Origin: Acidobacteriota bacterium
Lineage (GTDB): Bacteria; Acidobacteriota; Blastocatellia; UBA7656
Assembly (NCBI GenBank): GCA_038040445.1
Contig: JBBPIG010000035.1
Location: forward strand, 1 to 47,281
Direction: 5' to 3'
Length of the DNA stretch: 47,281 bases
Part shown: one piece after another, positions 5,476 to 16,202 of the stretch
Layout: the number at the start of each line of letters is the position of its first letter
How positions within the stretch are numbered: the first letter of the stretch is position 1
Program-made: the position numbers and the translations under genes
The notes under the pieces: model-generated
What the model saw: the letters and a program-made list of their open reading frames with translations, nothing else
Databases searched by the model: none
What the model was told of the DNA's origin: nothing

Positions 5476-6705
5476 TCATGATGAATCGACGACCTCGGGT
5501 TGAAATCGCCTGGCAAGCTGAGCGCCGGGCTCAAGTAGCTGGACGCGGAGCATTCGCCCGTTGTGGCAGAGGGGACACATCTCCAAAGACTCGCCGGTCA
5601 GCAGCTCATATCTCTTCTTCCAATCACCAGCCAGGCGTTCTGTAGGTACAGGCTCAGCGGAGAGATCTTCAACTGGTTGTGACTCCGCGATGAGTTGGCG
5701 GCACAAAGCGAGTTTCTCATTACGGTGACAGTTGCTCAGCAAGCCGTAGTGACGGATTCGGACAAAGCCGTCGGGCAACACGTGGAGCAGAAACCGGCGA
5801 ATGAACTCGCAAGCGGCCAGAGTCATGGTTCGGTTAGCGTTGCCAGTTCGATAGTCCTTCCACGAAAAGGCGACCTTGCCGTCTTGCAAACTCAGCAAGC
5901 GGTTGTTTGAGATAGCCACGCGGTGAGTGTACCGGCCAAGGTAGTTGAGCACTTGAGCCGGTCCCCCGAACGGGCGCTTGGCGTAGACGTGCCATTTATT
6001 GTTGCGGCACAGGCCCAGCAGCCGAGCGAACGCTGAGTTGTCAGACAGGTGAGCGAGTTGTCCGTGAAAGCTCAACTGATCTTTGTCAAAGGCGAGCTTG
6101 AGGTAGTGAAGGAACAAGCCGCGAAACAAGCGGGAAAGGACTTTGACAGGGAGAAAGAACTTCGGGCGGCAGCCGATCCAGCGCGAGCCGTCGAGCGAGA
6201 TGCCGCCGCCAGGAATCACGCAGTGAATGTGAGGATGGTGCAACAGAGTTTGACCCCAGGTGTGGAGCACGGCCAGGAATCCGATCTGGGCGCCCAGATG
6301 CTTGGGATCAGCGGCGATGCGGCGGAGCGTCTCAGCCGCCGCACGGAAGAGTATGTTGTAGACGACTCGCTTGTTCTGCAGGGCTATAGACGCTATGTGG
6401 TCCGGGACAGTGAACACGACGTGAAAGTAGTGGACAGGCAAGAGCTCGGTTTGACGCTCGGCAAGCCATCGGTCGCGTTCCAGTGACTGGCACTTGGGGC
6501 AATGCCGATTGCGGCAGGAGTTGTAAGAGGGGCGAATGTGACCGCAAGAGTCACACTGATCCAGGTGACCACCCAACGTGGCGGTGCGGCATTGCTGGAT
6601 CGCTCGCATCGTGCGCCGCTGCGTTCGGGAGGCCGGATATGCTTCGAGGAATGACGCGCCGTGCCGCCCAAAGACGTCGGCGACTTCCAGCCTTGGCCTG
6701 GGCAT
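5476..6705 (-). CDS. IS91-family HUH transposase
   Basis: A 409-residue protein of typical IS91/IS801 length and layout. A zinc-binding N-terminus has Cys at about 51, 54, 64, 69 and 72 (CDSC...CRNRHCPKC). The HUH motif is H159-I-H161 within HHPHIHCVIPGGG. The catalytic region has two tyrosines, Y255 and Y259, in YLGRYTHR. A C-terminal CPLC segment follows. Enzymes of this family nick and join single-stranded DNA for rolling-circle transposition. It starts 9 bp after the stop of the recombinase gene upstream on the same strand, so the two are probably co-transcribed. All key residues are present and the frame is intact, so it may be active. Confidence 0.93.
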   Translation of the reverse strand: MPRPRLEVADVFGRHGASFLEAYPASRTQRRTMRAIQQCRTATLGGHLDQCDSCGHIRPSYNSCRNRHCPKCQSLERDRWLAERQTELLPVHYFHVVFTVPDHIASIALQNKRVVYNILFRAAAETLRRIAADPKHLGAQIGFLAVLHTWGQTLLHHPHIHCVIPGGGISLDGSRWIGCRPKFFLPVKVLSRLFRGLFLHYLKLAFDKDQLSFHGQLAHLSDNSAFARLLGLCRNNKWHVYAKRPFGGPAQVLNYLGRYTHRVAISNNRLLSLQDGKVAFSWKDYRTGNANRTMTLAACEFIRRFLLHVLPDGFVRIRHYGLLSNCHRNEKLALCRQLIAESQPVEDLSAEPVPTERLAGDWKKRYELLTGESLEMCPLCHNGRMLRVQLLEPGAQLARRFQPEVVDSS

Positions 6706-6714
6706 CGCAGCCCC

Positions 6715-7599
6715 CTACGGCCGGGTTGAATCAGGCAGCAGATCGAGCGGGCTTGGCGTCGCCCGCAACGTATCAGCCGATACATGGGTGTACACGGCGG
6801 TGGTGCGCAGACTGCGATGACCGAGCAGAATCTGGATCGTCCGCACGTCGGCGCCGGCTTCAAGCAAGTGAGTGGCAAATGAGTGACGAAGCGTGTGCGG
6901 AGTGACGTGCTTGGTGAGGCCGGCACAACTGGCAGCCTTGCGGCAGGCGTCGCGGACCGAGTGAGTGCTTATGTGAGTGTCAGGCCCAGACCCCTGGAAC
7001 AACCAGAAGGCGGGGCGGGCCGCCTTCCAGTACTCGCGCAACACCAGCAGCAGCCGGGGCGAGAGCATCACGTAGCGATCCTTACGGCCCTTGGCTTGCT
7101 GAATGCGGATGACCATTCGCCCGGAGTCGATGTCGGAGACCCGCAAGGAGACAACCTCAGAGACGCGAAGCCCGGCCGAGTAAGCAGTCATCAAGATGGC
7201 GCGGTACTTGAGGCTTCCGATTGCGTCAAACAACCGGATGACTTCCTCGAGGCTCAAGACAACCGGGAGCTTTTTCTCCTGTTTGGGGTAAGGGATGTGC
7301 CGGATGACCCAGTCCTTTTCCAGAGTGATTCGGTAGAGGAATCGGAGAGCGCACACAGCCTGGTTGAAGGTGGACCAGGAGGCTTTCTTGGTTTGGGCGA
7401 GAAAGACCTGGTAGGCGTGGATGTGTTTGGGTCCGAGCAGTTCGGGAGAGCGCCGGAAGTAGCGAGCGAACTGGGCGACTCGATCGACGTAGGCGCGCTG
7501 GGTGTTTGGCGAGAAGTTGCGGACGATCATGTCTTCGAGCATACGTTGCCGCAAAGTTGTGGTTTGACCTGGCGGCGCAGTCTGACGTAGAGATTCCAT
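6715..7599 (-). CDS. Tyrosine recombinase associated with the IS91 element
   Basis: A 294-residue XerC/D-like site-specific recombinase. The N-terminal SAM-like core-binding domain covers about residues 15-105. The catalytic domain has the full set R145 (AGLRVSE), K170 (AKGRKDR), H235 and R238 (HTLRH), H261 (LGH) and nucleophile Y270 (AVYTHVS). A good AAAGGAG lies just before ATG 7599. It heads a two-gene unit with the IS91 transposase, an arrangement seen in some IS91 relatives. I do not see the additional patch that marks integron integrases. The nearest non-coding DNA upstream of it contains attC-like palindromes, so a link to cassette exchange is possible but unproven. Confidence 0.92.
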   Translation of the reverse strand: MESLRQTAPPGQTTTLRQRMLEDMIVRNFSPNTQRAYVDRVAQFARYFRRSPELLGPKHIHAYQVFLAQTKKASWSTFNQAVCALRFLYRITLEKDWVIRHIPYPKQEKKLPVVLSLEEVIRLFDAIGSLKYRAILMTAYSAGLRVSEVVSLRVSDIDSGRMVIRIQQAKGRKDRYVMLSPRLLLVLREYWKAARPAFWLFQGSGPDTHISTHSVRDACRKAASCAGLTKHVTPHTLRHSFATHLLEAGADVRTIQILLGHRSLRTTAVYTHVSADTLRATPSPLDLLPDSTRP

Positions 7600-7801: not shown

Positions 7802-7898
7802 GTTCAACGCGCATTATGTTGTCGGAGCAGCGCAAGTGCCACTGGCTTTTTTGAGTGGCACGCGCGCTGGCCTCGACGAACATAATGCCGCGTTATCG
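7802..7898. repeat. attC-like long imperfect palindrome
   Basis: Arms 7806-7842 and 7854-7894 pair over most of their length (AACGCG, CATTATGTT, GTCG/CAGCGC and GTGCCACT, with complements on the right). The extra unpaired bases are almost all in the right arm. The left end GTTCAAC fits the integron core RYYYAAC. The right end GTTATCG starts GTT but fits GTTRRRY only partly. The loop is a short T-rich stretch. Length and asymmetry match attC recombination sites. Alternatives are a terminator-like hairpin or an IS end. Confidence 0.4.
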
Positions 7899-8208: not shown

Positions 8209-8466
8209 TTAGGGTTTGTATCTAAGCATCAGAAGCAGCACAGCTAAAACTAACAGCGTCTCTGAACCCAAATCGAAATCAATAGGTACATCTTGAGTAG
8301 ATTTCCTCAAGGCTCCGTCCGTGCTTGGCTTGATGGACTGTTCGCCTGGCTCACAAAGACAGCCTGGCGCGGAGCATTGACACCAATCGCCCGCTACTGT
8401 GTGCCCTCCCAATACAGGAAAGGACAAGCACAACATGAGCAAAGCGACAAAAAGTAGTCTTTTCAT
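8209..8466 (-). CDS. Small exported Cys-rich protein with C-terminal membrane segment
   Basis: An 85-residue protein. It has a signal peptide (MKRLLFVALLMLCLSFPVLGG) and a cysteine cluster DWCQCSAPGCLCEPGE. A hydrophilic linker is followed by a C-terminal hydrophobic segment (ETLLVLAVLLLML) ending in basic RYKP. The start is ATG 8464-8466 with a strong AAAGGAG about 6 bp upstream, better than the GTG two codons earlier. The layout suggests a secreted precursor anchored by its tail, or a small envelope protein; I know no function. It is divergent from, and overlaps the first codons of, a TPR-AraC regulator, so the two may form a regulated pair. Confidence 0.65.
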   Translation of the reverse strand: MKRLLFVALLMLCLSFPVLGGHTVAGDWCQCSAPGCLCEPGEQSIKPSTDGALRKSTQDVPIDFDLGSETLLVLAVLLLMLRYKP

Positions 8467-9604
8467 GTTCACTCCTTTAGCGAAATATGCTGGATTCTAT
8501 CAGGAAGTGTTGAGTGGCACGGGTAACTATGAGCAATTAGGCAATCGCCTTATCCGGGTGGGTGAGCAAGCACATTCATTGCGGCAGTTCGACAAAGTAA
8601 AGGAAATCGGTTTACTTCTTTCCAATGTTCCAATCAAACGCTATCAAGCAATTGGCGGCTTTTTCTTAGCTGTTGCAGTTAACAGTATGGGAAACGGAGA
8701 TCAAGACGAAGCCAGAAGACTATTCGAAATTGCTGTTGATCGGGCACCCGACCCTTACAAGGTGAAGTCCATCCTTTCACTAGGCGCATTAGCATTTCAC
8801 AAGAAGGACTTTGATTCTGCGTTTTACTTCTACCAACAAACGATCAGAATTGAGGGTCTAGGCCCCGCCAGCCTCCAAGCAATAAGAGGCATCACAACAT
8901 TGAAATCCATCGAGGGGTATCACAAATCCGCAATCGCTGACGTTGAAAGAATATTGCCTCTCATCAGGTTTGCGCCGCCGAATGTCTACCTTGACTGCTT
9001 GAACTCTTACGCAGTTGAGTTGTCAGAAGTGGGCCGGTTGCAGGAGGCGGAAAACGTTTCTTCATTAGTCATCGCATCGCCTCTTACCCGCTATTATCCT
9101 GAATGGCAAGACACGTTGTCGGAGGTCAGATCAAAACGAAAGCGGCGCTCTACCGTTGCGATCCCGCTGCCACCGGTTGAAGGAGAATACGAAGGTGTCG
9201 TTGAACCAGAAGCCCCGGAAAACACGATTGGCAATCTACGAATTCAGACCGTGATCGACTTCATGAATACAAACCTTGAGCGGAAGATGTCTTTAAGCGA
9301 ATTGGCAAAGGTAGTAAATCTGTCCCCGTCTCACCTTTCTCGCCTTTTCAAAAATGAAACCAAACTATCACCAGGGGAATATCTCATAAGACTCAGACTG
9401 GAAAAAGCTCGTCATCTTCTGGCAATGAGCTTCCTGAGCATTAAGCAAATTATGGCATTAGTAGGCTACGGCAATAGGAAAGGCTTTGTGGGCCACTTCA
9501 AGAGATACTTTGATCTCACCCCCTCCAAATACAGGAAGCGCGCCTACAGCGGTCAGCCTAGTTTGACAAGTGATATCGAGCTGGGTAGTATCCGCCCATT
9601 ATAG
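8435..9604 (+). CDS. TPR-containing AraC-family transcriptional regulator
   Basis: About 389 residues. The N-terminal ~240 residues are helical repeats of TPR type (FFLAVAVNSMGNGDQDEARRLFEIA, LGALAFHKKDFDSAFYFYQQ, LSEVGRLQEAENV). After a Pro/Glu-rich linker comes an AraC/XylS DNA-binding domain with two helix-turn-helices (MSLSELAKVVNLSPSHLSRLF and FLSIKQIMALVGYGNRKGFVG) and the closing FDLTPSKYRK motif. TPR regions in regulators often bind peptides or partner proteins. I start at ATG 8435 because AGGAAAGGA lies 10 bp upstream; ATG 8465 is possible and shares a CATG with the start of the divergent small gene. A clear terminator follows at 9622. The gene is AT-richer than its neighbours. Confidence 0.85.
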   Translation: MSKATKSSLFMFTPLAKYAGFYQEVLSGTGNYEQLGNRLIRVGEQAHSLRQFDKVKEIGLLLSNVPIKRYQAIGGFFLAVAVNSMGNGDQDEARRLFEIAVDRAPDPYKVKSILSLGALAFHKKDFDSAFYFYQQTIRIEGLGPASLQAIRGITTLKSIEGYHKSAIADVERILPLIRFAPPNVYLDCLNSYAVELSEVGRLQEAENVSSLVIASPLTRYYPEWQDTLSEVRSKRKRRSTVAIPLPPVEGEYEGVVEPEAPENTIGNLRIQTVIDFMNTNLERKMSLSELAKVVNLSPSHLSRLFKNETKLSPGEYLIRLRLEKARHLLAMSFLSIKQIMALVGYGNRKGFVGHFKRYFDLTPSKYRKRAYSGQPSLTSDIELGSIRPL

Positions 9605-9619
9605 TTTGATTTTGGCTTT

Positions 9620-9650
9620 AAGGCCATCCGCTCGGATGGCCACTTTTTAT
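9620..9650 (+). terminator. Rho-independent terminator
   Basis: GGCCATCC (9622-9629), loop GCTC, GGATGGCC (9634-9641), then ACTTTTTATT. A perfect 8-bp stem with a T-run, 17 bp after the regulator's stop codon. Confidence 0.85.
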
Positions 9651-9800
9651 TCTGGGAGAGGCGTTCGAAAGCCGGTGAGTCAACTGTATTGTTAGCCGTT
9701 TTACTTTCGTCGGTATTTAGCCGGCAGGCAAGTTGCGGTTGCTCCCTCCAGAGTTGTACCTTGTCAAAGACCCAGTCGAGAAGTTCCTAAAGGTGAATCG

Positions 9801-11555: not shown

Positions 11556-14500
11556 TCAAGGCAACACTGTTATCCTGAGTTGTGAAGACGTGACTGTGGT
11601 GGGCGTGGTATCAGTCGCCCTCACCGTGAATATGAAGAGCCCGGTTGCGGTAGGCTTGCCCGAAATCACTCCCGTAGCCGTGTTCAACGTCAGTCCGGTT
11701 GGGAGCGCCCCGCTCGCCAGGGCCCACGTGTAAGGAGGCCTCCCGCCAGTTGCCACTAGCAGGTTCGAGTAGTCGGTGTTCAACTTGCCTCCGGGCAGGT
11801 CTCCGATGCTGGAAATGATCAATGGCGGGGGGTCGATTATGATCCTGAGCGTGCCGGACGTTAAGTTTTCGGGCGGCGATTGTGAATCCGTCAACCGCAC
11901 GGTGAATGGGAACGTACCAATTTCAGTGGGAGTGCCGGAGATAACCCCGGAATTTGGGTTCAACGAGAGCCCCGTTGGCAACGCGCCGCTGACAAGCGCC
12001 CAGGTGTAAGGCGAAAGCCCGCCCGCTTTTTGAAGCGTGAAGGAATAGAACACATTGACTGTGCCCTTCGTCAGATCACCGCTCGTGGGTATCTGTAACG
12101 GCCCAGGAACGATCGTGATTCGGAGCGGCTGAGAAGTGACGGTCGTCTGGGTGGAGTCAGTCAAACGCACCGTAAAATTGAACGTCCCTACCTGGGTCGG
12201 AACACCTGTGATAAGACCGGTGGTGCCGAGCGTGAGCCCAGGCGGTAGCGAGCCGGTATTCATTATCCACGTGCGCGGTGGTACGCCTCCGGTGAATAGT
12301 AGCTGGACGGAATAGACGACTCCGGTGCTACCTTGTTCGATATCACCGTTGCTGACAACTCGTAGCGGCTCGATGTCAGGAACGATAGTGATCGTGAAGC
12401 TGGCGATGGCTATAGCGCCGATTGAATCGGTTGCCCGAACGACGAACGGGAAAGTCCCAAACACCGTGGGAGTGCCTGAGATCAATCCGGCCGCGTTTAG
12501 TGAGAGGCCGGAAGGCAACGAGCCGGATACCAGTGTCCAAGAGTAGGGCGGCTTTCCGTTAGTCGCGCCAAGCTGCAAGCTGTAGCGTTCACCCTTCTTT
12601 CCTTTCGCGATGTCATTGGTGCTGATCGTGAAGACCTGGTTCTGGAACACGATCGGGCGCGCGCCCACCACCGTAGTGTTACCGGCGGCATCCAGCAATC
12701 GTATGGCTATTGTGTGGTCGCCGTTGGAAAACTTCGTTGTGTCTATCTGGAAACCGAAGCCTGAACGCGAGGCGTTCGGGAAGGTGGCCCAACTGGTTCC
12801 AATATCAGGACGGCTCAAACCGTAGATTGCTTCGCCAACCTTCTGTCCGTCTACGAGCACGTCTATCTGAACAACACCTACGTTGTCGAGCGCCCATCCG
12901 CTGCCATTCGCGAGGTTATTCAACGTGGCGCGGAAGTCGGGTGTCTCGAGCGCGCCGAAGGGCGCTAGCTTATCGGCGGGCTTGACGGTGATTGCTAGCG
13001 TGCGCGTTACGGTTTGTTGAGCGGAGTCTGACACACGCACTACGAAGACGCTGGTTCCCGGCGATACAGGCGTACCCGAGATTGTCCCGCCCGCCGAGAG
13101 ATTCAATCCGGCTCCCAGACTTCCGCTCGCTATGCTCCAGGTATAAGGCAGTACGCCGCCAGTTGCCTGAAGCGTCTGGGAGTAGACCCGTTCTGCCGTG
13201 GTTTCGGGAAGCGAGACTGTCTGGATCACCAGCGGCGGGGGCGGCTGGGTCACGAGCAGGAAAAGAGACTTCGTGCTGGAAGTGCCCAGCGAGTCCTTCA
13301 ATCGGACCACGAAGGAAGTCGCGCCTGCCGTTGACGGCCGGCCGGAGATCTTACCGTCGCCGCTCAAGGTCAGGCCGTCCGGTAGTGCACCGGTGTCTAT
13401 GGTCCAGGTGTACGGCCCGAGGCCACCGGACGCTTCTAACGCGGCGTTGTACAAAATACCCTGCAATGCTTGCGGAAGGAACTCGGTCCTTATTAGGAGC
13501 GGGGGCGGCGGCGGACCGACTTCAAGCGTCAGCGGTTTGGACGCTTGCTTGTCGGCAGAGTCGCTTACTAACACGGTGAAATTGGAAACGCCCTGAGCGG
13601 TCGGCGTTCCAGATAGTATGCCGTCCGACGAGAGTGTTATCCCATCCGGGAACGCACCAAATTTCTTTTTCTTCTTCTTGACCCAGCTATAGGGTGCAGT
13701 GCCCGCAGTCGCCTTGAGGTCGTACCGGTAGGGCACCCCCAATGCTGCGACCGGAAGCGCGCCGGGGCTCAGAATGGTCAGCTCAGGTGGAGGGTCCACG
13801 TCAATCGACAACGTCGTTGTGGTTGATTGACTGCTCTGATCAGTTGCTCGCACCTCGAGTGTCAACTCGCCCGGCGTGGTCGGCGTGCCCGCTATGACGC
13901 CCGCGTCTGAAAGGTGCAGTCCGTCTGGAAGACTTCCCGACGTGAGGTCCCATTTATAAGGAGAGGTGCCCCCGGAAGCCGCGAGGGTTTGCGAGTAGGC
14001 TTCGCCGACAACGCCGTCTGCCAAAGACTTGGTGTCTATGGCCAGCACCAGAGTCGCCGGGTTGATAGTGATTGAAAGAGTTGCTGAGACGCTTGCGCTC
14101 ACGGCGTCGGTGAGTTGTAGTGCGAAGCTTGCAGCCATCGAACGCTCCGGCGTCCCTGAGATGATGCCGCTCTGGTTGAGCGTTAGACCATCCGGCAGAC
14201 TTCCCGACTGAATCGACCACGTGTAAGGGGTCTGACCTCCAGATGCTCCGATGCTTTGGCTGTAGGCCACGCCTACAGATCCCCTCGGCAACTGGTTGGC
14301 GGTGATCGTCAGAGGCGCCGCGGACTTGACTATGAGGGTCAGCGCTTTGGTGGCAGAGTTGCCGTTGCTGTCTGTCACCTTCGCGACGAAGTTGAAGGTC
14401 CCGGCGGTTGAGGGCGTTCCGGAGATTGAACCGGCCTGTCCTAATGCCAAACCTGGCGGTAGGTTCCCGCTCTCAATCGACCAGGAGAAGTCGGGCTTAC

Positions 14501-16202
14501 CTCCGACTGCCGCCATTGTCCGGCTATAGGCCACGCCAACGGTCGCCTCCGGCAAATCTCCTGTGCCGATCGTAAGCACCGGCGTGGTGGAGGGCGTGAT
14601 AACCGCGGCTTCGTTAGAGTACTGCGATGTGCCCGTTCCATTGAACGCCCGCACCCGATAGGCATAAGCCGTGTTGGCAAGTACGTTGCCGTCGATGAAG
14701 GTGGTCGTGTTGCCTGGAACGACCCCGATCTGGCTGAACTCCGCGCTCGATCCCCCGCGGCGTTCGATCTGAAATCCATCCTCGACCCCCGATGTATCTT
14801 GCCACACCGCGGCGACCTGCGTGGGCGAGGTCGCGCCGGCGACCAGACCACTCGGAGCTGTTGGCGCCGGCTTGGGGACGGCTGACGTCCAGCCGATCTG
14901 GGCTACCGTAAACGGACAAAGGGCCAACTCGTTGAGCCGCATCATGCAATCGGTGGAAGTTCGAGTGCAAGCGAGGTCCTGGCAGTTTCCGTTGAGCGCG
15001 TCGGGTCTGACTTCCGGGGCACAGGTGCAACTGCATACCTGATACCCTGGCTGAAAGTATTCGTCGCAGGCATAGAAGATGTGACCGGTTTCGTGCGCGG
15101 CTATTCGTGAGAGTTGCCAGCCAAAGCTGCGGAAAAGGCTAACCGTGTATGGACCTCCGATATAGGCCCAGGACGCGCGCCCGTCGGTGAATGAGCTTCG
15201 AGTCGGCGCCGGGTTGTAGGCAATGAACATCGAGTATGCCCAGTTGGCGCGGTTCTGATCCCTGAACGCCCAGTCGAACGCGGCGACGCGCTCGAAAACG
15301 TTGCCGGCCGAGGCGCCTACATTGCTCATTATCTGGTTGATCCAGATAGGAGCGTCGCTACCGGGCCGCAGCACCGGCTCATACGGCACGCGGCAAACCG
15401 GGTTGTTGGCGTCGAAGACTACAACCGTGAACTGCAGCGGGCGCGAAAGGTTGAACGCTCGCGATTGCTCGACCCACCAATTCAGCCCGTCGAGTACTTG
15501 CGCGGCGGCAAAATTCTGATCGGCCTGTGACCATGAGTAGAGGTCCGGATCGACGCCACCCGTACTCTCGACCAGAAAGACGGCTACCGCAACAGAGCCA
15601 TCCATCACATCGCTGTTACTGAAGTATTGAGGCGTGACGGTCGACTGAATGCCGAGCACGGATTGTTCGGCGCCGAGCATTCTGAGATTGCGGATGAATT
15701 CATCCTTATTGACGGGTGGATGAGGAAGCGCGCACTCGACCATTCCTGGCCGCCCAGCTTCCGGGCCAACCTGCTGCTCAGATTCACGCGATCGGCGTTT
15801 AGCGCTGCGCCCAGATGCAATGTCGTTGAACGCGTTGATCGCTATCTGCGTTTCGCGGTCGGTGAAGCCTGAGGGCGCGGGACCGACAGGTGATCGGTGA
15901 ATCGAGCGTATCCCGTGACGTCCCAGAATTCGCGAGTCCGCTTCCGGACTGAGCCATCCCATTATTGCGTGCGGCGGAAGGACTATGGCGACACTGCCGC
16001 CTTGAGAAGTGATGAAGTCGCGGGCTTCCGCAAGCCCGGCTTTTGAACTTGCGTCAACCAGGATCAGCGAATATCCGGCCCGCCCATTGGATGGGGCGGA
16101 TTGATTGTGTGAATGAGTGCGAGCTGAAGCGCTAAAGGCAGTCGAAACCAGGAGCGCAAGCACGGACCGGAACACCAAACGAACCATCAATACAGACCTC
16201 AA
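11556..16202 (-). CDS. Giant secreted protein: metalloprotease-like domain, FN3 and ten putative-Ig repeats
   Basis: 1548 residues with a signal peptide (VFRSVLALLVSTAFSASA). The N-terminal ~430 residues contain HETGH at residues 370-374 followed by IFYACDEY, an HEXXH zinc-peptidase signature, and a Cys-rich stretch (CSCTCAPEV..) downstream. An FN3 domain follows at about 447-537. Ten He_PIG-type Ig repeats (GVAYSQ...GG..PYTW...SG.LP.GL.L...G.ISGTP...G...F...) are split six plus four by a different beta domain (LAPFGALETPD to GARPIVFQNQ). The fourth Ig repeat carries six consecutive lysines (codons at 13662-13679) where the others have a short loop. Probably a cell-surface or secreted protease or adhesin; the substrate is unknown. 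Confidence 0.85.
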   Translation of the reverse strand: MRSVLMVRLVFRSVLALLVSTAFSASARTHSHNQSAPSNGRAGYSLILVDASSKAGLAEARDFITSQGGSVAIVLPPHAIMGWLSPEADSRILGRHGIRSIHRSPVGPAPSGFTDRETQIAINAFNDIASGRSAKRRSRESEQQVGPEAGRPGMVECALPHPPVNKDEFIRNLRMLGAEQSVLGIQSTVTPQYFSNSDVMDGSVAVAVFLVESTGGVDPDLYSWSQADQNFAAAQVLDGLNWWVEQSRAFNLSRPLQFTVVVFDANNPVCRVPYEPVLRPGSDAPIWINQIMSNVGASAGNVFERVAAFDWAFRDQNRANWAYSMFIAYNPAPTRSSFTDGRASWAYIGGPYTVSLFRSFGWQLSRIAAHETGHIFYACDEYFQPGYQVCSCTCAPEVRPDALNGNCQDLACTRTSTDCMMRLNELALCPFTVAQIGWTSAVPKPAPTAPSGLVAGATSPTQVAAVWQDTSGVEDGFQIERRGGSSAEFSQIGVVPGNTTTFIDGNVLANTAYAYRVRAFNGTGTSQYSNEAAVITPSTTPVLTIGTGDLPEATVGVAYSRTMAAVGGKPDFSWSIESGNLPPGLALGQAGSISGTPSTAGTFNFVAKVTDSNGNSATKALTLIVKSAAPLTITANQLPRGSVGVAYSQSIGASGGQTPYTWSIQSGSLPDGLTLNQSGIISGTPERSMAASFALQLTDAVSASVSATLSITINPATLVLAIDTKSLADGVVGEAYSQTLAASGGTSPYKWDLTSGSLPDGLHLSDAGVIAGTPTTPGELTLEVRATDQSSQSTTTTLSIDVDPPPELTILSPGALPVAALGVPYRYDLKATAGTAPYSWVKKKKKKFGAFPDGITLSSDGILSGTPTAQGVSNFTVLVSDSADKQASKPLTLEVGPPPPPLLIRTEFLPQALQGILYNAALEASGGLGPYTWTIDTGALPDGLTLSGDGKISGRPSTAGATSFVVRLKDSLGTSSTKSLFLLVTQPPPPLVIQTVSLPETTAERVYSQTLQATGGVLPYTWSIASGSLGAGLNLSAGGTISGTPVSPGTSVFVVRVSDSAQQTVTRTLAITVKPADKLAPFGALETPDFRATLNNLANGSGWALDNVGVVQIDVLVDGQKVGEAIYGLSRPDIGTSWATFPNASRSGFGFQIDTTKFSNGDHTIAIRLLDAAGNTTVVGARPIVFQNQVFTISTNDIAKGKKGERYSLQLGATNGKPPYSWTLVSGSLPSGLSLNAAGLISGTPTVFGTFPFVVRATDSIGAIAIASFTITIVPDIEPLRVVSNGDIEQGSTGVVYSVQLLFTGGVPPRTWIMNTGSLPPGLTLGTTGLITGVPTQVGTFNFTVRLTDSTQTTVTSQPLRITIVPGPLQIPTSGDLTKGTVNVFYSFTLQKAGGLSPYTWALVSGALPTGLSLNPNSGVISGTPTEIGTFPFTVRLTDSQSPPENLTSGTLRIIIDPPPLIISSIGDLPGGKLNTDYSNLLVATGGRPPYTWALASGALPTGLTLNTATGVISGKPTATGLFIFTVRATDTTPTTVTSSQLRITVLP

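Follow-up and report, generated by a model that had tools for sequence, protein, structure and literature searches.

The closest described counterparts of the locus presented here are the RRNPP systems, e.g., Rap-Phr, PlcR-PapR, NprR-NprX and Rgg-SHP. Their TPR partners occur with or without a DNA-binding domain, and several pairs may share one genome. To our knowledge, RRNPP pro-peptides carry neither a cysteine motif nor a C-terminal membrane segment. The criteria given with RRNPP_detector, a tool made for Gram-positive genomes, comprise a Sec-exported pro-peptide of 10-100 aa and a receptor of 250-500 aa that matches TPR models of several libraries (E < 1e-5, coverage > 65%). Receptor and pro-peptide genes are adjacent at a spacing of -60 to 400 bp, DNA-binding receptors have an N-terminal HTH, and after re-import the mature peptide binds to the TPR domain of the receptor (PMC10075063).

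Here, we describe two head-to-head genes from one family of soil bacteria in the class Blastocatellia, whose layout resembles that of an RRNPP system, so that by analogy the pair looks like a signalling unit. Blastocatellia are Gram-negative. The window, i.e., the whole stretch of 47,281 nucleotides that was analysed, is locus C35 of genome G000, its own genome. The features of the pair are as follows.

8209..8466, minus strand: gene of a small, putatively exported protein, 85 aa (sequence, Shine-Dalgarno pattern, codon positions and dN/dS)
8472..8478, minus strand: Shine-Dalgarno sequence of the small gene, AAAGGAG, located 5 nt upstream of its ATG
8435..8466, no strand: head-to-head coding overlap of 32 bp (start comparison across pairs)
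8435..9604, plus strand: gene of the TPR-AraC regulator, 389 aa from the ATG at 8435 (Pfam, model)
8528..9148, plus strand: TPR superhelix of the regulator, approximately residues 32-238, the part common to the TPR family (profile, model)
9302..9541, plus strand: AraC-type DNA-binding domain, HTH_18 (Pfam)
9622..9651, plus strand: terminator-like hairpin with T run 3' of the regulator gene, weak evidence for its terminator (scan: 2 sites versus 2.1 expected)

The minus-strand frame at 8209-8466 translates to MKRLLFVALLMLCLSFPVLGGHTVAGDWCQCSAPGCLCEPGE...LLVLAVLLLMLRYKP, 85 residues in total. A preliminary description had taken this frame, starting inside the 5' end of a divergent regulator gene, for a real gene, and its strong ribosome site and the selection acting on it bear this out. 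For the signal peptide, cysteine cluster and C-terminal membrane segment named in that description, Kyte-Doolittle analysis (best 15-residue means of 2.7 at the N-terminus and 2.2 at the C-terminus) and alignment show a signal-like hydrophobic N-terminus, a cysteine motif GH..WCQCSAPGCLCEPGE and a C-terminal hydrophobic segment with a basic end. An N-terminal hydrophobic segment was present in all seven small proteins measured in this way. In an alignment of 21 small proteins (A2), the invariant columns are, in window numbering, M1, P17, G21, C29, C31 and C36, and the A and H that flank G21 are nearly constant. In the common layout, a CxC pair is followed by a short loop, more cysteines, a variable stretch and the C-terminal hydrophobic segment, to which most members add a basic end. 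The intact relatives listed measure 75-116 aa, most of them more than 100 aa. No family matched the small proteins in Pfam (three scanned) or NCBIfam (four scanned).

Purifying selection on the small frame, the absence of which had been named beforehand as a refutation, was confirmed. The dN/dS comparison was confined to pairs of small-gene homologues with 55% identity or more, among which several dS values are undefined or near saturation; omega in these pairs ranges from 0.17 to 0.59. Beyond codon 30 it is 0.12-0.73, with the exception of the small gene of the window and its paralogue in C30, for which dS in this part is undefined; this pair shows pS = 0.66 and pN = 0.27, with dS near saturation. 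The differences beyond codon 30 are distributed over codon positions 1/2/3 as 125/96/262 in nine chosen pairs (723 codons), and as 16/12/30 between the window gene and that of C30.

The preliminary description had further pointed out that the two possible start codons share one CATG. Such a CATG exists at 8464-8467 and holds the ATG at 8465 on the plus strand and the ATG at 8466 on the minus strand. The regulator most likely starts upstream of it, at the ATG at 8435, which results in the 32-bp overlap: from there its N-terminus reads MSKATKSSLF, its counterpart in the C30 regulator is MSKQTESSLF, and the start position is conserved in other pairs. Across the family, the coding overlap was measured in 33 pairs from the presumed conserved TPR start, which 4 of 37 loci lack; it amounts to 29-83 bp and is 2 mod 3 in every one of them. 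The phase holds whichever in-frame TPR start is correct, and its constancy would be expected if all pairs descend from a single ancestral overlap. All 37 small genes examined, two of which are remnants, have a loose Shine-Dalgarno pattern upstream of the start, versus 7 of 33 TPR starts. Since the coding starts overlap, the promoters should lie within the partner genes and face each other; transcription of one gene should thus interfere with that of the other and render the pair switch-like. A promoter scan gave a chance-level result.

The proposed architecture of the regulator, an N-terminal TPR domain and a C-terminal AraC HTH, is in good agreement with our results. The AraC part matches HTH_18 of Pfam with E = 8.7e-24, and HTH_3 also matches inside this stretch (residues 272-303, 24.6 bits at a cut-off of 23). 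All TPR matches in Pfam are below the cut-offs, TPR_2 being the best (E = 2.9e-5), and the TPR fold is found in an AlphaFold2 model with a mean pLDDT of 86.7 and a pTM of 0.59. In this model the TPR superhelix and the AraC domain are confident, the linker between them is of low confidence. Comparison with known structures by VIA-align places PlcR with PapR7 on top (Z = 19.3, rmsd 2.6, 200 residues, 5% identity), followed by PlcR again (18.2), APC/C (18.1) and TSK (18.0); OGT reaches 17.2, NprR 16.6 and Rap 16.4, and the AraC part matches AraC-type domains at Z = 15-16. PlcR lies only 1.2 Z above the best TPR proteins outside RRNPP, so that the fold is not diagnostic of a peptide receptor; as modelled, it fits a peptide-binding groove without being proof of one. 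The part shared within the family covers approximately 215 residues, whereas the C-termini vary, C35 and C30 carrying AraC and other members a PRAPP-type or acidic tail. The asparagine N190 (389-aa numbering) near the TPR end is invariant in 28 rows of alignment A3 and at least 90% conserved in A4; by the known geometry of TPR domains it may line the groove. A search of PDB sequences with the TPR profile returned 149 matches, the 60 listed being other TPR proteins.

The TPR gene and the small gene form a conserved, co-duplicated pair that is under purifying selection and overlaps at its 5' ends in one phase. Searches of the window's own genome with either protein revealed paralogues of both, co-located at four more loci (C30, C19, C55 and C2). 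Profiles of the TPR protein (A3) and the small protein (A2) were then run against 162 genomes of the class Blastocatellia, scoring at most 18 (TPR) or 29 (small) candidates per genome. At E <= 1e-10 the TPR profile matched 6 of the 162 genomes, all in the window's family f1, which contributes seven genomes to the set; in the f1 genome G004, neither gene passed the thresholds applied. The small-protein profile at E <= 0.01 matched six genomes as well, five of f1 and G159. The match in G159 (E = 0.009) was rejected as a relative outside f1, being a 49-residue frame with a stop within the match and no TPR neighbour. The small gene of G002 was found by the first small-protein profile (E = 0.002), and a divergent small gene lies beside both TPR genes of this genome. 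In a sample of 396 genomes of the phylum, 22 genomes matched the TPR profile at 1e-6. Outside f1 the best match there was 2.4e-11 and the matches fell mostly in far longer frames, and a spread of the TPR family past f1 was therefore rejected.

After removal of two fragments (G006:C559:33-221 and G000:C19:68386), the 42 TPR matches represent 40 loci: 6 in G000, 3 in G001, 2 in G002, 10 in G003, 5 in G005 and 14 in G006. Whether a small gene is always divergent to TPR homologues had been proposed as a check, and it came out in favour of the pair: 37 of the 40 loci carry an intact divergent small gene (35 of 37 listed loci, G006:C71 with a broken TPR frame, and G002:C46), and the other three, G000:C10, G001:C2 and G003:C86, carry a remnant. 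At C10 and G001:C2 the TPR gene is still open. Wherever the flanks of an intact small gene can be read, a TPR gene is present; small genes without a visible one lie at contig ends (L074, L094, L103), where the fragmentation of G001 and G006 hides the partners, or are fragments (L078 = G006:C461, L108 = G000:C42). The distance matrices of small and TPR proteins correlate with r = 0.76 (35 pairs), a value reached by none of 2000 permutations. Restricted to 11 close type-A loci, it falls to a modest r = 0.36, a value reached by 26 of 2000 permutations. The loci L075 (G006:C47) and L076 (G006:C511) each carry two small-protein matches in tandem, the second of them weak in L076, beside a single TPR gene.

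The fusion to AraC is a minority feature, occurring in 2 of 40 loci, and hence the conserved unit is the pair of TPR gene and small gene rather than a TPR-AraC regulator with its peptide. DNA-binding genes recur next to the TPR genes in other forms. An AraC gene follows on the same strand, 121-1076 bp past the end of the TPR frame, at 8 of the 38 TPR loci with downstream sequence. Seven of the 14 HTH_18 genes of G003 lie just downstream of a TPR gene of the family, and 4 of the 11 in G000 are linked to the pair (two fused, one adjacent, one beside a small-gene remnant). The same position is taken by 6 of 12 HTH_Crp_2 genes in G003 and 6 of 13 in G006; the chance expectation for AraC or CRP adjacency is about 0.01-0.02, whereby paralogous or duplicated blocks are not independent. 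One CRP-like partner shows a weak, below-cut-off cNMP-binding match. At five loci of G001 and G005 an XRE-like gene is convergent at the TPR 3' end, with Pfam HTH_3 in all three scanned and with the neighbours in L179 and L190 named by sequence resemblance. Altogether, a DNA-binding partner is fused or adjoining at 23 of 39 TPR loci (the 38 with downstream sequence and G006:C559): 10 AraC, 8 CRP without AraC, and 5 XRE-like.

At the remaining 16 no DNA-binding gene was recognised among the neighbours listed. Five of these adjoin an unnamed gene of 150-180 aa, one has a MerR-like gene (L213, by resemblance), in one the first two genes are a kinase/LytTR-type pair, and another has almost no downstream sequence; less than 1.5 kb is available at five TPR loci (L199, L201, L202, L211 and L213). 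On the TPR tree, the AraC-linked proteins are scattered (fused C35 and C30, C19 beside C55 and C2, and loci of G003). Label changes number 8 versus a shuffled mean of 7.6 for AraC and 8 versus 7.0 for CRP only, i.e., neither is clustered, so that such neighbours were often gained or lost or the tree is too weak. The XRE label is clustered (3 changes versus 4.7, 13 of 500 shuffles as low). The sensing pair built on a TPR-AraC protein, as put forward in the preliminary description, holds in part: repeated fusion or adjacency to DNA-binding genes supports a regulatory role of the TPR partner, while AraC itself is fused in those two loci only.

Further genes were observed around these loci. The protein of 150-180 aa (..FINRLTIQEAREVG.. 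or similar) lies downstream of TPR genes at L189, L196, L204, L206 and L207, all in G006, and the one copy scanned has no match in Pfam. A gene of 118-119 aa that resembles a receiver follows the AraC gene at L182 (G000:C19) and L108 (G000:C42). Contig C42 holds the AraC gene and a scrap of the small gene but lacks the TPR gene, which gives the impression of a decayed module.

Set against the RRNPP systems, the likeness concerns layout and size. In both, the gene of a small protein, exported in RRNPP and putatively so here, adjoins a TPR gene of 250-500 aa, the regulator of the window having 389 aa. The small protein of the window, with 85 aa, is within 10-100 aa, while most of its listed relatives exceed this range, and the spacing of -32 bp is within -60 to 400 bp, while type A relatives reach -83. 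The modelled TPR part matches PlcR, NprR and Rap at the Z scores given above. The differences concern the domain order, since RRNPP receptors have an N-terminal HTH and DNA binding in the Blastocatellia lies in a C-terminal AraC domain or in separate AraC, CRP or XRE genes; the partner, which with 75-116 aa has a CxC motif and a C-terminal hydrophobic segment; the head-to-head start overlap in one phase; and the sequence of the TPR part, whose relation to RRNPP receptors is not evident from the 60 listed PDB matches. Because of the C-terminal AraC DNA-binding domain and the longer partner with its CxC and hydrophobic segment, we do not file the pair as RRNPP. Oligopeptide-binding proteins (SBP_bac_5) are represented by 3-6 matches in each of four genomes searched, which only permits peptide import.

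Two other groups invite comparison. With AraC/XylS regulators the window shares the double helix-turn-helix (the HTH_18 match above) and differs in the presumed sensor, a TPR superhelix from a family found here in one bacterial family only. As in PEP-CTERM/exosortase substrates, many of the small proteins end with a short motif, a hydrophobic segment and a basic end; unlike these, the four scanned have no NCBIfam match. Exosortase sorting was rejected, as PF09721 gave no match in G006 and G002, which have small genes and in whose 690 and 160 contigs, respectively, a PF09721 gene may have been missed, and two matches in G004, which has no small gene. The exosortase match of G000 sits beside a protein of its own with a PTLSEWG-type end. 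At L151 (G000:C6) and L150 (G001:C91) a short exosortase-like protein adjoins a repeat protein ending PTLSEWGAILMALLIIAA..., and the two are likely a dedicated sorting pair.

A sensing module best accounts for the pairing, for its expansion and for the various transcription factors linked to it. Tentatively, and at somewhat less than an even chance, we favour a module in which a small cysteine-bearing protein is exported and a TPR protein in the cytoplasm acts as its receptor or adaptor, with an output DNA-binding domain that is fused or neighbouring. The small protein would be exported by Sec and anchored through its C-terminal segment, and the TPR groove would sense it, or a peptide cut from it, as its ligand. 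In the window, binding would alter the activity of the AraC domain on the shared divergent region and elsewhere; more generally, the output would be carried by an exchangeable DNA-binding domain, be it the fused AraC or a gene next door. A direct sensing of the small protein is rivalled by a reading that is nearly as likely, in which the small gene is a divergent target and the input is another one. Divergent pairs of a regulator and its target are common. In such an arrangement the TPR protein, with AraC, CRP or XRE, would control a small envelope protein and sense a metabolite or another protein, and the small protein would be an inner-membrane or periplasmic effector, e.g., a disulfide or metal-binding protein. 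The conserved CxC, the extra cysteines and the C-terminal hydrophobic segment are more those of an envelope protein than of a short pheromone, and the CRP-like partners, one with its weak cNMP-binding match, point the same way. A near-obligate 1:1 pairing, 2-14 TPR loci per genome and an overlap in one phase exceed the needs of one target. We regard this reading as possible, though less likely than not. The open TPR genes beside decayed small genes at C10 and G001:C2 are neutral between signal and local target. The sensing module may be taken a step further, to a Gram-negative peptide signalling that does not descend from RRNPP, in which TPR receptors and CxC pro-proteins would form many paralogous channels, with AraC, CRP and XRE outputs swapped and a switch of face-to-face promoters; this extended version is less likely than not.

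A pair of toxin and antidote, or of rivals, in which the small protein is membrane-active and harmful and the TPR protein keeps it in check by neutralisation or repression, would account for the hydrophobicity at both ends, the multiple copies and the tight linkage. It would also suit the fact that intact small genes whose flanks can be read always have a TPR gene whereas TPR genes are found beside decayed small genes, as expected of an antidote. Against it stand the conservation of the cysteine region that separates the hydrophobic parts, on which purifying selection acts, and the lack of a PADLOC family for the small protein and the three TPR proteins scanned; this reading is improbable. Still less credit is due to a secretion monitor, where the TPR protein would bind the nascent signal peptide and report the status of Sec or the membrane, which arrest peptides also do, by a different mechanism. 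Among the most constant parts are indeed the hydrophobic N-terminus and the AxAGH region, but the constancy of the N-terminus may stem from the overlap with the TPR gene, and no connection of the TPR protein with SecA or ribosomes was seen here. A spurious antisense origin of the small frame, which its start within another coding region and the lack of Pfam or NCBIfam matches might suggest, is refuted by the Shine-Dalgarno pattern at 37 of 37 genes, the third-position excess, dN/dS, the conserved cysteines and the linkage at 40 loci.

Several other readings were rejected, among them a mobile or phage origin. The small protein of the window has no match in 50,697 phage records, and a five-sequence alignment found no relative in IMG/VR, where none of 23 pattern-matching stretches was confirmed. 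The regulator is matched by 1912 plasmid records, none covering more than 80%; among the 10 listed, the longest covers 53% and the others the AraC part. Of six proteins compared with PADLOC as candidates for a defence system, the sole match was that of an XRE neighbour, a weak one (capH, E = 0.005). The cysteine motif matched one PDB entry, which we take to be CDGSH-like, at E = 0.25; this was taken as chance, and a relation to CDGSH iron-sulphur proteins was dismissed. In open-licence PMC, no paper reports the pair by title or start of abstract, searches for RRNPP with AraC, for Blastocatellia TPR with AraC and for AraC-TPR with peptide pheromone found no paper, and nothing on peptide-based quorum sensing in Acidobacteriota appeared by title or start of abstract.

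If the small protein is a signal, Blastocatellia would have peptide signalling via intracellular receptors, with many channels per cell, beyond the Gram-positive bacteria that RRNPP_detector was designed for (PMC10075063). Regardless of this role, the two genes form a family with strong linkage, and no name was found for it, the small proteins scanned having no match in Pfam or NCBIfam. It is also a clear case of head-to-head overlapping genes that kept one phase through dozens of duplications, and in which coupled transcription is directly testable.

Two further regions of the window were observed. Approximately 0.6 kb past the 3' end of the small gene, an IS91-type Y2 transposase (PF04986, PF14319) adjoins a tyrosine recombinase (PF00589) at 5476-7599 on the minus strand. 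Between these genes and the small gene, an imperfect inverted repeat was found by eye at about 7810-7890 (attatgttgtcg ... cgacgaacataat), which is perhaps an end or target of the IS91-type element. On the other side, at 11556-16202 (minus strand), lies the gene of a 1548-aa protein, probably exported, in which ten stretches match He_PIG (putative Ig).
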